Part shown: piece after piece, positions 45,164 through 48,758 of the stretch | Layout of the letters: every line of letters starts with the position of its first letter | Position numbering within the stretch: the first letter of the stretch is position 1 | Assembly (NCBI GenBank): GCA_022600955.1 | Contig: JAHZJK010000011.1 | Span: 248,001 to 312,000 of the forward strand | Reading direction: 5' to 3' | Length of the DNA stretch: 64,000 nt | DNA from: Gammaproteobacteria bacterium | Lineage (GTDB): Bacteria; Pseudomonadota; Gammaproteobacteria; Steroidobacterales; Woeseiaceae | Notes under the pieces: generated by a model | Seen by the model: the letters and a program-made list of their open reading frames with translations, nothing else | Database searches by the model: none | What the model was told of the DNA's origin: nothing | Translations under genes and position numbers: made by a program

Positions 45164-46126
45164 ATGTTTGGAAAGAAAGAAAAGCCCGAGAAGCGTGAGG
45201 GCTTCATTACCCGGCTGCGTGCCCGTATCAATCGGGGCGATAGCTGGCTCACCTATGACCTCGCAAACCTCGCGCCTGGCGGCACCATCGACGAAGATGT
45301 GCTGGAAGAACTCGAGGCATTGCTGGTCATGGCAGACGTCGGTGTCGAAACGACTGAACGCATAATCGGCGAGCTGCAGAAAAGCCTGGCGCGCAAGGAG
45401 CTCAAGGACCTTGATGCACTGCGCACGGGTTTAGAGCGATCTCTTCTGGAGATCCTCGAACCCGTTGAGAAGCCGCTGCAGATCACGCCAACCGAGGGGC
45501 CATTCGTTATTTTCATGGTCGGCGTCAATGGCGCTGGAAAGACCACGACAATCGGCAAGCTCGCACGCCGCCTGCAGGACGAAGGGCACTCCGTGATGCT
45601 CGCGGCAGGAGACACGTTCCGCGCCGCGGCCGTCGAGCAATTACAGACCTGGGGACAGCGCAACGACGTTGCCGTGATCGCACAACAGTCGGGCGCCGAT
45701 CCTGCAGCGGTCATTTTTGACGCCTGGGAGGCGGCGAAAGCCCGTGGCATTGATGTTTTGCTTGCAGACACGGCAGGGCGTTTGCAAAGTCAGACTGGAC
45801 TGATGGACGAGCTGGCGAAAATGAAGCGCGTCGTTGGCAAGCAGGACCCGGCCGCGCCGCACGAGACCATGCTCGTTCTGGATGCCAGCCAGGGACAGAA
45901 TGCGCTCGTGCAGGCAGAAAAGTTTCACGAGGCTCTCGGCCTGAGCGGCATTACCGTAACGAAGTTGGATGGCACCGCAAAGGGTGGCATTCTACTCGCC
46001 ATCGCAGATCGCCTAGGTGTTCCGGTGCGCTTTATCGGCATCGGTGAGTCCGTGGATGATATGCAGGTTTTCAATGCGAAAGATTTTGCGGGCGCGTTGC
46101 TCGCATCGTCCGACAAGACTTCATAG
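45164..46126 (+). CDS. ftsY: Signal recognition particle receptor FtsY
   Basis: A 320-residue SRP GTPase for membrane-protein targeting. It lacks the long acidic A domain of E. coli FtsY and begins directly MFGKKEKPEKREGFITRLRA, then the N domain and the G domain: GVNGAGKTTTIGKLA, GDTFRAAAVEQL, LADTAGRLQ, TKLDGTAKGG. A longer frame exists to 44729 but lies over rsmD. It is followed directly by ftsE. Confidence 0.96.
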   Translation: MFGKKEKPEKREGFITRLRARINRGDSWLTYDLANLAPGGTIDEDVLEELEALLVMADVGVETTERIIGELQKSLARKELKDLDALRTGLERSLLEILEPVEKPLQITPTEGPFVIFMVGVNGAGKTTTIGKLARRLQDEGHSVMLAAGDTFRAAAVEQLQTWGQRNDVAVIAQQSGADPAAVIFDAWEAAKARGIDVLLADTAGRLQSQTGLMDELAKMKRVVGKQDPAAPHETMLVLDASQGQNALVQAEKFHEALGLSGITVTKLDGTAKGGILLAIADRLGVPVRFIGIGESVDDMQVFNAKDFAGALLASSDKTS

Positions 46127-46798
46127 ATGATTCAACTCGAAAACGTCACGAAGCGGTTCCCCGGCGGTCAGGAAGCACTGTCCGGACTCAGCCTTTCTGT
46201 CGACAAAGGCGAAATGGTGTTTGTCACGGGGCATTCCGGTGCCGGCAAGAGCACGTTGCTAAGGCTCATTGCGCTTATCGAGCGACCAACCAGCGGTCAG
46301 GTCATTGTCGATAAACAAAACACGCAGCGCGTGAAACGGCGCAAGATACCCGCCTACCGGCGACAGATTGGCATGGTTTTTCAGGATCATCGCTTACTGC
46401 ACGATCGACCGGTTTTCGACAATGTGGCGTTGCCCCTGATTATCGCTGGTGTCAATCACCGTGACGCCGGGCGCCGCGTACGGGCAGCACTTGACCAGGT
46501 TGGATTGCTGCACAAGGAAAAGCAGATCCCTCAGACCCTGTCGGCTGGCGAGCAGCAAAGGGTTGGAATCGCGCGGGCAATTGTGACGCGCCCGAAACTG
46601 CTCATCGCAGATGAGCCTACGGGCAACCTCGATCCAGACCTTTCTCTGGAGGTCATGCGCATATTTCGCCGCTTCAACGAGGTCGGCGTAACGCTTCTTA
46701 TAGCAAGTCATGACATCGCGCTGATAGACCGGCTGGGATGTCGGCGCATTGCGCTCGAGGACGGCAAGCTGCAACTGGAGGGCGACCCGTGGCAGTAA
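46127..46798 (+). CDS. ftsE: Cell division ATP-binding protein FtsE
   Basis: A 223-residue ABC ATPase. With FtsX it transmits a signal across the membrane to activate septal murein hydrolases. Walker A GHSGAGKSTLLRLI, signature LSAGEQQRVGIARA, Walker B LLIADEPTGNLD and the switch His ASHDIALI. It begins at the base after the ftsY stop and overlaps ftsX by 10 bp. Confidence 0.96.
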   Translation: MIQLENVTKRFPGGQEALSGLSLSVDKGEMVFVTGHSGAGKSTLLRLIALIERPTSGQVIVDKQNTQRVKRRKIPAYRRQIGMVFQDHRLLHDRPVFDNVALPLIIAGVNHRDAGRRVRAALDQVGLLHKEKQIPQTLSAGEQQRVGIARAIVTRPKLLIADEPTGNLDPDLSLEVMRIFRRFNEVGVTLLIASHDIALIDRLGCRRIALEDGKLQLEGDPWQ

Positions 46799-47754
46799 CC
46801 CGCAATGCGGATGCCGTCGCACCGGTGCGTTCTTCTGGTGCGTTTACGACCTGGTTGACTCGTCATGCGAGCTCATCATTGGGATCGCTCGGGCGACTCG
46901 CCCGGCAGCCTTTTTCCAGTCTTATGATAGTGATGGTCATCGGCGTCACGCTATCCATACCGGCCGCCATCAATGTCATTGTCAAGAACGCCCAGTCAGT
47001 TAGTGCGAGCTGGGACAATGCACTGGATTTCTCGGTATTTCTAAAGCCCGAGATATCGGTAGACGAGGCGCAGGGTCTCGCCGGCCTGATCGCGCAACGC
47101 GCTGACATTGAGAGAGTGGACCTCATCACCGCCGATGAGGCGATGGCAACATTTAAACAGCAATCCGGTTTTGGCGACGCCCTCAACCAACTGTCTGATA
47201 ACCCCCTGCCGCATACGCTGTCTGTTCGCCCCGGGCCAGGCAACACGAGCGCCTCGCTGATACTGCTGCAAGAAGAAATCTCCAACCTGCCAGAATCGGA
47301 AATGGTGCAGGTCGATACCGATTGGGTACAGCGCTTTCATGCCATTCTCGATATTGTGCGGCAGGCTATCGCTATCGGTTCTGCTCTGTTGGGTATCGCG
47401 ATTGTTGTCATTATTGGCAACACCATCCGGCTTGATATCGAGAACCGGCGCGAGGAGATCGAGGTAACGAAATTGATTGGCGCCAGTAACGCCTTCGTAC
47501 GGCGTCCTTTCCTGTGGACCGGTTTCTGGTACGGGCTGCTGGGCGGTATCGTTGCTTTGCTGCTGGTGCAATACGGTCTCTACCTGCTACGGGACCCGGT
47601 GGGCAGGCTCGCCGGCCTTTATCAAAGCAATATCGACATCGCGTCGCTGGATGTTGCTGAAAGTGGCGCGCTGGTCGGGGGCGCAATATTGCTCGGCCTG
47701 TTCGCATCCTGGCTGACAGCAGCACGCCATATGCGCCGGATCGAACCTCGCTAA
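46789..47754 (+). CDS. ftsX: Cell division protein FtsX
   Basis: A 321-residue membrane partner of FtsE. The first hydrophobic segment (about 47-67, SLMIVMVIGVTLSIPAAINV) is followed by the extracellular domain with AQSVSASWDNALDFSVFLKP, then three hydrophobic segments in the C-terminal half, with EVTKLIGASNAFVRRPFLWTG between them. The GTG at 46789 starts within ftsE. A GC-rich hairpin without a T run (GCGCGC-AAA-GCGCGC, 47769-47783) follows the stop. Confidence 0.93.
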   Translation: MAVTRNADAVAPVRSSGAFTTWLTRHASSSLGSLGRLARQPFSSLMIVMVIGVTLSIPAAINVIVKNAQSVSASWDNALDFSVFLKPEISVDEAQGLAGLIAQRADIERVDLITADEAMATFKQQSGFGDALNQLSDNPLPHTLSVRPGPGNTSASLILLQEEISNLPESEMVQVDTDWVQRFHAILDIVRQAIAIGSALLGIAIVVIIGNTIRLDIENRREEIEVTKLIGASNAFVRRPFLWTGFWYGLLGGIVALLLVQYGLYLLRDPVGRLAGLYQSNIDIASLDVAESGALVGGAILLGLFASWLTAARHMRRIEPR

Positions 47755-47841
47755 TATTACATAATATCGCGCGCAAAGCGCGCTAAATAGCTGCTTTCTA
47801 TAAGAATATTTCCTTTAGGTATCGGGAACTTATCGCCTCTG

Positions 47842-47868
47842 TTAGCACTCCAACCTATCGAGTGCTAA
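47842..47868 (+). promoter_or_regulatory. CIRCE element (HrcA operator) upstream of rpoH
   Basis: TTAGCACTC-N9-GAGTGCTAA, a perfect match to the CIRCE consensus in both arms and in spacing. It lies 27 bases upstream of the rpoH start. A TAAAAT -10-like element (47866-47871) overlaps its right arm, so HrcA bound here would block the promoter. The hrcA gene itself is not in the window. Confidence 0.93.
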
Positions 47869-47894
47869 AATACAGCTCACAACGGAGGTACTCA

Positions 47895-48758
47895 ATGACA
47901 ACCGCTTTTGCGAAATCCAATCACGACCTTGTACTGGCAGGACCAGTAGGCAGCCTTGACGCCTACATTAACGCTGTTGGTGCTGTTGACGTTCTCAGCA
48001 AAGAGGATGAGCAAGCTTTGGCCGTCCGCTTTCGCGAGCACGAAGATCTCGATGCCGCGCGTGACCTGGTCATGGCGCACCTGAGATTTGTTGTCCATAT
48101 CGCCAAAGGCTACACCGGCTACGGACTGCCGCTGAACGACCTGATTCAGGAAGGCAACGTCGGCCTTATGAAGGCCGTTAAGCGCTTCGATCCTGAATAC
48201 GACGTCCGACTGGTGTCGTTCGCCGTCCACTGGATTCGCGCCGAGATTCACGAGTTTGTCCTGAAGAACTGGCGCATTGTCAAAGTTGCGACGACCAAGG
48301 CGCAGCGCAAACTGTTCTTTAACCTTCGCAAGAAGAAGAAGACTCTCGCCTGGCTGTCTGCCGCTGAGACCAAAGCTGTCGCCGAGGATCTGGGTGTCAG
48401 CACCAAGGAAGTAACGGAAATGGAGAAACGCCTGCACTCGCGTGACGCCATCTTCGACCCGACCCCGGATGCTGATGACGAGCGTAATTTTACACCGGCC
48501 GCATACCTTCCCAGTCCGGATGCTGATCCGGCGAAGCAGGTTGAGAAAGCCGACTTCAATGAGGATGCATCAACACGCATGCACGCGGCATTGAATATTC
48601 TCGACGACCGGAGTCGCCGAATTCTTGAGACCCGCTGGTTGACGGAAGACAAGCTGACATTGCACGAGCTTGCTGCTGAATACGGTATTTCAGCGGAGCG
48701 AATTCGCCAGCTCGAAGTTAACGCGATCAAGAAACTCAGGAACGCGATGGCCGTTTAG
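47895..48758 (+). CDS. rpoH: RNA polymerase heat-shock sigma factor RpoH (sigma-32)
   Basis: A 287-residue sigma factor. Region 1/2: VGSLDAYINAVGAVDVLSKE, LIQEGNVGLMKAVKRFDPEYDVRLVSF and the RpoH box KAQRKLFFNLRK (about residues 132-143). Region 4: RRILETRWL and LHELAAEYGISAERIRQLEV. A strong GGAGGT precedes the ATG. Its place after ftsYEX is standard. The CIRCE operator in front of it implies that HrcA as well as the usual post-transcriptional controls set its level. Confidence 0.97.
   Translation: MTTAFAKSNHDLVLAGPVGSLDAYINAVGAVDVLSKEDEQALAVRFREHEDLDAARDLVMAHLRFVVHIAKGYTGYGLPLNDLIQEGNVGLMKAVKRFDPEYDVRLVSFAVHWIRAEIHEFVLKNWRIVKVATTKAQRKLFFNLRKKKKTLAWLSAAETKAVAEDLGVSTKEVTEMEKRLHSRDAIFDPTPDADDERNFTPAAYLPSPDADPAKQVEKADFNEDASTRMHAALNILDDRSRRILETRWLTEDKLTLHELAAEYGISAERIRQLEVNAIKKLRNAMAV

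Follow-up and report, generated by a model that had tools for sequence, protein, structure and literature searches.

The window, by which we mean the whole 64,000-nucleotide stretch analysed here, carries on its forward strand the gene for the heat-shock sigma factor sigma-32, rpoH (47895..48758, 287 aa counted from the ATG), which was identified by TIGR02392 (397.6 bits; cut-off, 323.1). Upstream of it, the gene order is ftsY-ftsE-ftsX: ftsY ends at 46126, ftsE occupies 46127-46798, and the ftsX ORF (46738..47754, forward strand) is the upstream neighbor of the rpoH locus. A GGAGG at 47884..47888 on the forward strand, as read from the sequence, is the likely ribosome-binding site of rpoH. 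Directly past ftsX there is also a perfect GCGCGC inverted repeat (47769-47783), which is terminator-like on the minus strand only.

Ahead of rpoH, the CIRCE operator TTAGCACTC-N9-GAGTGCTAA was matched on the forward strand at 47842-47868 with 0 mismatches (left arm, 47842-47850; spacer, 47851-47859; right arm, 47860-47868), at a distance of 26 bp from the rpoH ATG. An earlier note on this DNA had claimed a perfect CIRCE at this place and had considered a chance match unlikely. Both claims held, since the site is the sole match of the window at ≤3 mismatches, with a mean of 0.01 expected by chance and a match in one of 100 dinucleotide shuffles of the window.

The source genome assembly (3.86 Mb in 35 contigs, 93.56% complete) has two CIRCE sites at ≤3 mismatches, one before groES-groEL and the one before rpoH; a reversed control pattern of CIRCE gave no match across the 3.86 Mb. 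The earlier note had made its reading depend on the presence of hrcA, and the gene is there, as an ORF of 360 aa in which PF01628 (217.7 bits) and PF03444 (25.5 bits) both score above their cut-offs. It adjoins grpE and dnaK, and the genome-wide scan found no CIRCE at ≤3 mismatches at this hrcA-grpE-dnaK locus. By eye, sigma-32-type promoters precede dnaK (CTTGAAA-N13-CCCCACCT) and grpE (CTTGATA-N13-CCCCACAC), and no clear one was seen ahead of hrcA. An rpoE ortholog is also encoded (TIGR02939, 301.8 bits; cut-off, 236.15), followed by two ORFs that look like rseA and rseB. Before this rpoE stands AGAACTA-N16-TCTAT (L373, 1428-1455), noticed by eye, a possible sigma-E autoregulatory promoter.

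Predicted promoters within the operator

The earlier note had guessed that the CIRCE overlaps the promoter of rpoH, and this can now be stated more sharply, as two predicted promoters, one of the sigma-E type and one of the extended sigma-70 type, share bases with the operator. The consensus of sigma-E (RpoE, ECF02) is GGAACTT, followed after 15 to 17 bp by a TCTAA-, TCTGA-, or TCAAA-like -10. In the window, the -35 GGAACTT (47825..47831, forward strand) is separated by 17 bp from the -10 TCCAA (47849..47853, forward strand), which straddles the junction of the CIRCE left arm and spacer; TCCAA agrees with TCTAA in four of five bases and was permitted by the scan. The extended sigma-70-type -10, TGCTAAAAT, lies at 47863..47871 (forward strand) and begins with the last six bases of the CIRCE right arm. 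With TTAGCA, a -35-like hexamer in the left arm 18 bp upstream, it forms TTAGCA-18-TAAAAT with a TG before the second hexamer, built largely from the two CIRCE arms. A scan for the sigma-70 type only reported it as the single match in 47600-47950, with 0.3 expected in shuffles. The consensus sequences used for sigma-E and sigma-70 are degenerate.

Both arrangements recur at other rpoH loci. Promoters were counted at 79 sites of the class (78 from other families plus that of G045) and at 111 sites of the order. A sigma-E-type promoter that is complete and has its -10 within the operator was present in 53 of the 79 class sites, where 200 shuffles gave a mean of 0.46 and at most 3, and in 87 of the 111 order sites (shuffle mean, 0.55; maximum, 3). 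Within the class, 46 sites have a GAAC beginning at offset -15, eight at -16, and two at -14, against a background of 0.33 per offset elsewhere. Base 3 of the spacer is an A in 60 of the 79 class sites, while the mirror position has it in 24; the spacer begins with TAA in 22/79 and with TCA in 12/79 class sites, and with TAA in 64 of the 111 order sites. On the other side of the operator, TGNTAnnnT is kept in 69/79 class and 111/111 order sites, and the third base past the CIRCE is a T in 70/79 and 111/111, respectively.

As a control we used the CIRCE of groESL, taking the 30 loci that scored highest for GroES; two, in which groES was not found by motif, were left out, and 25 of the remaining 28 had a CIRCE at ≤3 mismatches. 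These sites nearly always lacked both nested promoter types: a GAAC starting at -20 to -15 was found in 0/25 (54/79 in the class rpoH sites) and at -14 in 1/25, the A at spacer base 3 in 2/25, and the T at the third base past the operator in 1/25. Since a mirror-symmetric binding site alone is insufficient to produce such one-sided base signals, they point to a promoter in a fixed register. The layout differs as well, with the promoter elements inside the operator at rpoH and, in most groESL controls, a TTGA-type -35 that precedes the CIRCE (by eye). In the groESL locus of L001 (about 1474-1527), TTGAAA-16-TATTAT abuts the CIRCE, a layout unlike that of rpoH, and by eye similar layouts recur in many of the groESL control loci.

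HrcA control of rpoH is the wider claim, and the reality of both nested promoters goes beyond it; we consider it possible, if rather unlikely, that just one of the two, the sigma-70-type -10 or the sigma-E promoter, is genuine and that the other is incidental in this genome. The complete sigma-E-type promoter is absent at its fixed place from 26/79 class sites, which together with the wider retention of TGNTAnnnT would favor a single promoter, as would the fact that the window scan reported the sigma-70 type, although it was the sole type sought. However, each element far exceeds its own shuffle or groESL control. The same scan also found a sigma-E-type promoter, TGAACTT-16-TCTGA, at E. coli rpoH (one strain region), which we take to be the known sigma-E-dependent P3 promoter. 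For Bordetella bronchiseptica, the available text of PMC3490749 reports in vitro transcription from the rpoH (fam) promoter by SigE.

Conservation of the site and its association with hrcA

The earlier note had also named a lack of conservation as evidence against its reading, and the site proved to be kept in the genus, in the order, and beyond. A search of 60 genomes, comprising the own one and its relatives, found at least one CIRCE at ≤2 mismatches in 59, and the rpoH CIRCE was perfect in all 30 of the best-scoring rpoH loci from the own genome and others of the genus. Of 137 genomes sampled in the order, 136 had rpoH and 131 were examined (G048, G062, G063, G082, and G089 were left out); the rpoH CIRCE was present at ≤3 mismatches in 121 of them and perfect in 89. 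Among the 80 nearest named RpoH loci, 75 had a CIRCE, one (L115) had the arms with an 8-base spacer, and four (L145, L157, L160, and L161) had no CIRCE at ≤3 mismatches. Six rpoH loci that were not caught by the first motif were entered by coordinates, and second RpoH matches were left out (G014, G097, G136, and G143 in the order; G188 and G233 in the class), the second copy of G188 being entered later through the wider look described below.

The operator at rpoH tracks the repressor gene. In the order, 117 of the 119 genomes with hrcA had the rpoH CIRCE; in G123 and G083, both with hrcA, the two arms are present with a spacer of 8 or 10 bases. Where no hrcA was detected, the site was missing in eight of 12 genomes and kept in four. 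The class sample took a single genome from each family and comprised 115 genomes; rpoH was present in 109, of which 107 entered the hrcA table, which omits the own genome and G045 (the latter is counted among the 79 promoter sites). A CIRCE ≤230 bp from rpoH was found in 73/80 genomes with hrcA and in 5/27 without (Fisher p 2e-12, uncorrected for phylogeny, the families being not fully independent). Sigma-E-type promoters anywhere ≤250 bp before rpoH were found in 35 of 52 hrcA-bearing class genomes (a subset; shuffle mean, 6.2) and in 11 of the 27 hrcA-less ones, several of them weak (shuffle mean, 3.75).

The exceptions were given a wider look, which covered the seven hrcA-bearing misses, the five hrcA-less genomes with the site, and G047, and not the 22 hrcA-less genomes without it. 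Among the misses, G273 has a CIRCE with one mismatch about 250 bp upstream and G188 has one at its other rpoH copy; G249 has a half-site, and G217, G183, G254, and G173 still gave no rpoH CIRCE. In G217 and G183 a CIRCE precedes an ORF that reads as hrcA. Of the five hrcA-less keepers, G220 is a weak match with three mismatches, and G234 and G267 have a CIRCE before groES too, so that their hrcA may just have dropped out of the assembly; in draft genomes, hrcA can be overlooked.

These exceptions bear on whether the sequence is nowadays kept as a promoter only, with HrcA irrelevant to rpoH. Its retention in 5/27 class and 4/12 order genomes without a detected hrcA would fit this, although three of the five class keepers are those just mentioned with a weak site or a groES CIRCE. 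Against it, a mere promoter has no need of both 9-base arms, and the site is missing in 22/27 and 8/12 of the hrcA-less genomes of class and order, which makes this explanation very improbable.

One family of the order, f12, is the only one in which no sampled genome had a detected hrcA (eight genomes; L234, L237, L243, L245, L247, L249, L250, and L253). All eight lack the rpoH CIRCE, and none has a sigma-E-type promoter ≤250 bp from rpoH. About 65 bp before the gene, all eight have instead a sigma-32-type promoter, CTTGAAA-N12 to 14-CCCCA-like (shuffle mean, 0.2), which occurs in 4/123 of the remaining examined order genomes (shuffle mean, 2.65). The pattern suggests a switch of rpoH to autoregulation by sigma-32 after the loss of HrcA. 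Since the eight genomes represent a single genus, the loss was probably a single event.

We also searched 299 genomes of the phylum for a strict version of the fused pattern, without regard to genes. Six matches resulted, five of them before rpoH (including the own); by genome, the pattern was present in the own genome and in 5/120 others of the class, and in 0/178 outside it. The 120 class genomes of this draw belong to 34 families, with 93 from only 12, and hrcA status is available for a minority of them. Four genomes of the draw (G172, G206, G230, and G244) failed the strict pattern and have a CIRCE at rpoH. In a family-weighted set, 36 of 108 genomes had the pattern. As the draw is weighted to few families, the fused arrangement appears common when counted by family among those with hrcA, and not when counted by sequenced species. 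A class-wide claim is thus limited by this second draw to a spread over many families, with rarity among the most-sequenced ones. The sixth match of the phylum search, again a fused sigma-E/CIRCE/-10 pattern, stands before an ORF resembling clpB (L428; G217:C8:47854-47898), in the genome G217, whose examined rpoH has no CIRCE.

Proposed control of rpoH and known systems

Taken together, these results support the reading of the earlier note, which put the RpoH regulon under HrcA, and we are fairly confident that HrcA controls rpoH through at least one promoter that overlaps the CIRCE. Because promoter elements lie inside the operator, HrcA bound there should block the rpoH promoters. Its binding, the use of the promoters, the start sites, and the signal through GroEL are what we infer from sequence. 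At normal temperature, CIRCE-bound HrcA would occlude the sigma-E -10, together with the -35-like hexamer and the extended -10 of the housekeeping promoter, and keep rpoH low. In Bacillus, HrcA is inactivated through titration of GroEL, and we assume the same for the source organism: misfolded protein would occupy GroEL, HrcA would become inactive, and groESL and rpoH would be derepressed together. The resulting rise of sigma-32 would activate its regulon, dnaK and grpE included; with rpoH under HrcA and sigma-32-type promoters at dnaK and grpE, both of these genes would be indirectly under HrcA. Envelope stress, acting via sigma-E, would raise rpoH fully only with HrcA off, and the operator would thus work as a gate between envelope and cytoplasmic stress.

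It is very improbable that the palindrome works as a hairpin of the rpoH mRNA, for stability or as a thermosensor, rather than as a DNA operator. With transcription from far upstream, for instance by read-through from ftsX, a 9-bp stem could be made by the two arms, and in Bacillus a CIRCE within the mRNA has been linked to how stable the message is. We reject this reading by argument, since the predicted start sites fall inside or after the palindrome and would leave the main transcripts without one or both arms, and since the arms are kept to the HrcA consensus and the site tracks hrcA, being gone in all eight f12 genomes.

Operator, repressor family, and promoter position are the same as in the HrcA/CIRCE systems of the groESL, dnaK, and hrcA operons. 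The difference from the classic case is that the target here is the heat-shock sigma factor, while hrcA-grpE-dnaK has no site at ≤3 mismatches. The earlier note, which had listed groESL, dnaK, and hrcA as the main known CIRCE positions, needs the correction that rpoH has a precedent, since a perfect CIRCE was predicted at -51 of rpoH in Geobacter sulfurreducens (Table 8 of PMC545781). This is a member of a distant clade (delta-proteobacteria in that paper), its hrcA-grpE-dnaK-dnaJ also has a CIRCE in that table, and the available text of PMC545781 describes no nested sigma-E promoter. The rpoH (fam) gene of B. bronchiseptica shares the sigma-E-type promoter, and HrcA does not appear in the text of PMC3490749 as available. 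CIRCE at rpoH is likewise unmentioned in the available parts of PMC12194929, PMC10696704, and PMC3224663. A literature search of such partly available sources, outside which stands the gamma-proteobacterial survey of Permina and Gelfand (2003), gave CIRCE at rpoH for Geobacter only and, within the same scope, no report of a CIRCE nested in rpoH promoters. What appears to be new is therefore the nesting of the CIRCE in predicted rpoH promoters, the presence of a CIRCE at rpoH being known from G. sulfurreducens.

The difference from E. coli asserted in the earlier note was borne out for the one strain region scanned, in which rpoH has no CIRCE (best match, eight mismatches). Control of RpoH in E. 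coli is largely translational and proteolytic. We find it an evenly balanced proposal that rpoH was ancestrally controlled in the Gammaproteobacteria by this fusion of an HrcA operator with a sigma-E and a housekeeping promoter. On this view, the E. coli state (a sigma-E promoter and no HrcA) would be derived, having followed the loss of HrcA, and sigma-32 autoregulation would have taken the place of the fusion in at least one further HrcA-less lineage.

All this suggests that the wiring of E. coli may not hold generally in the Gammaproteobacteria. If the proposed control is true, many gammaproteobacterial families would couple the synthesis of RpoH to HrcA through an operator that doubles as part of one or two promoters. 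The stacking of two heat-shock systems that are usually called alternatives would then become testable, as would the rewiring of rpoH upon the loss of HrcA.
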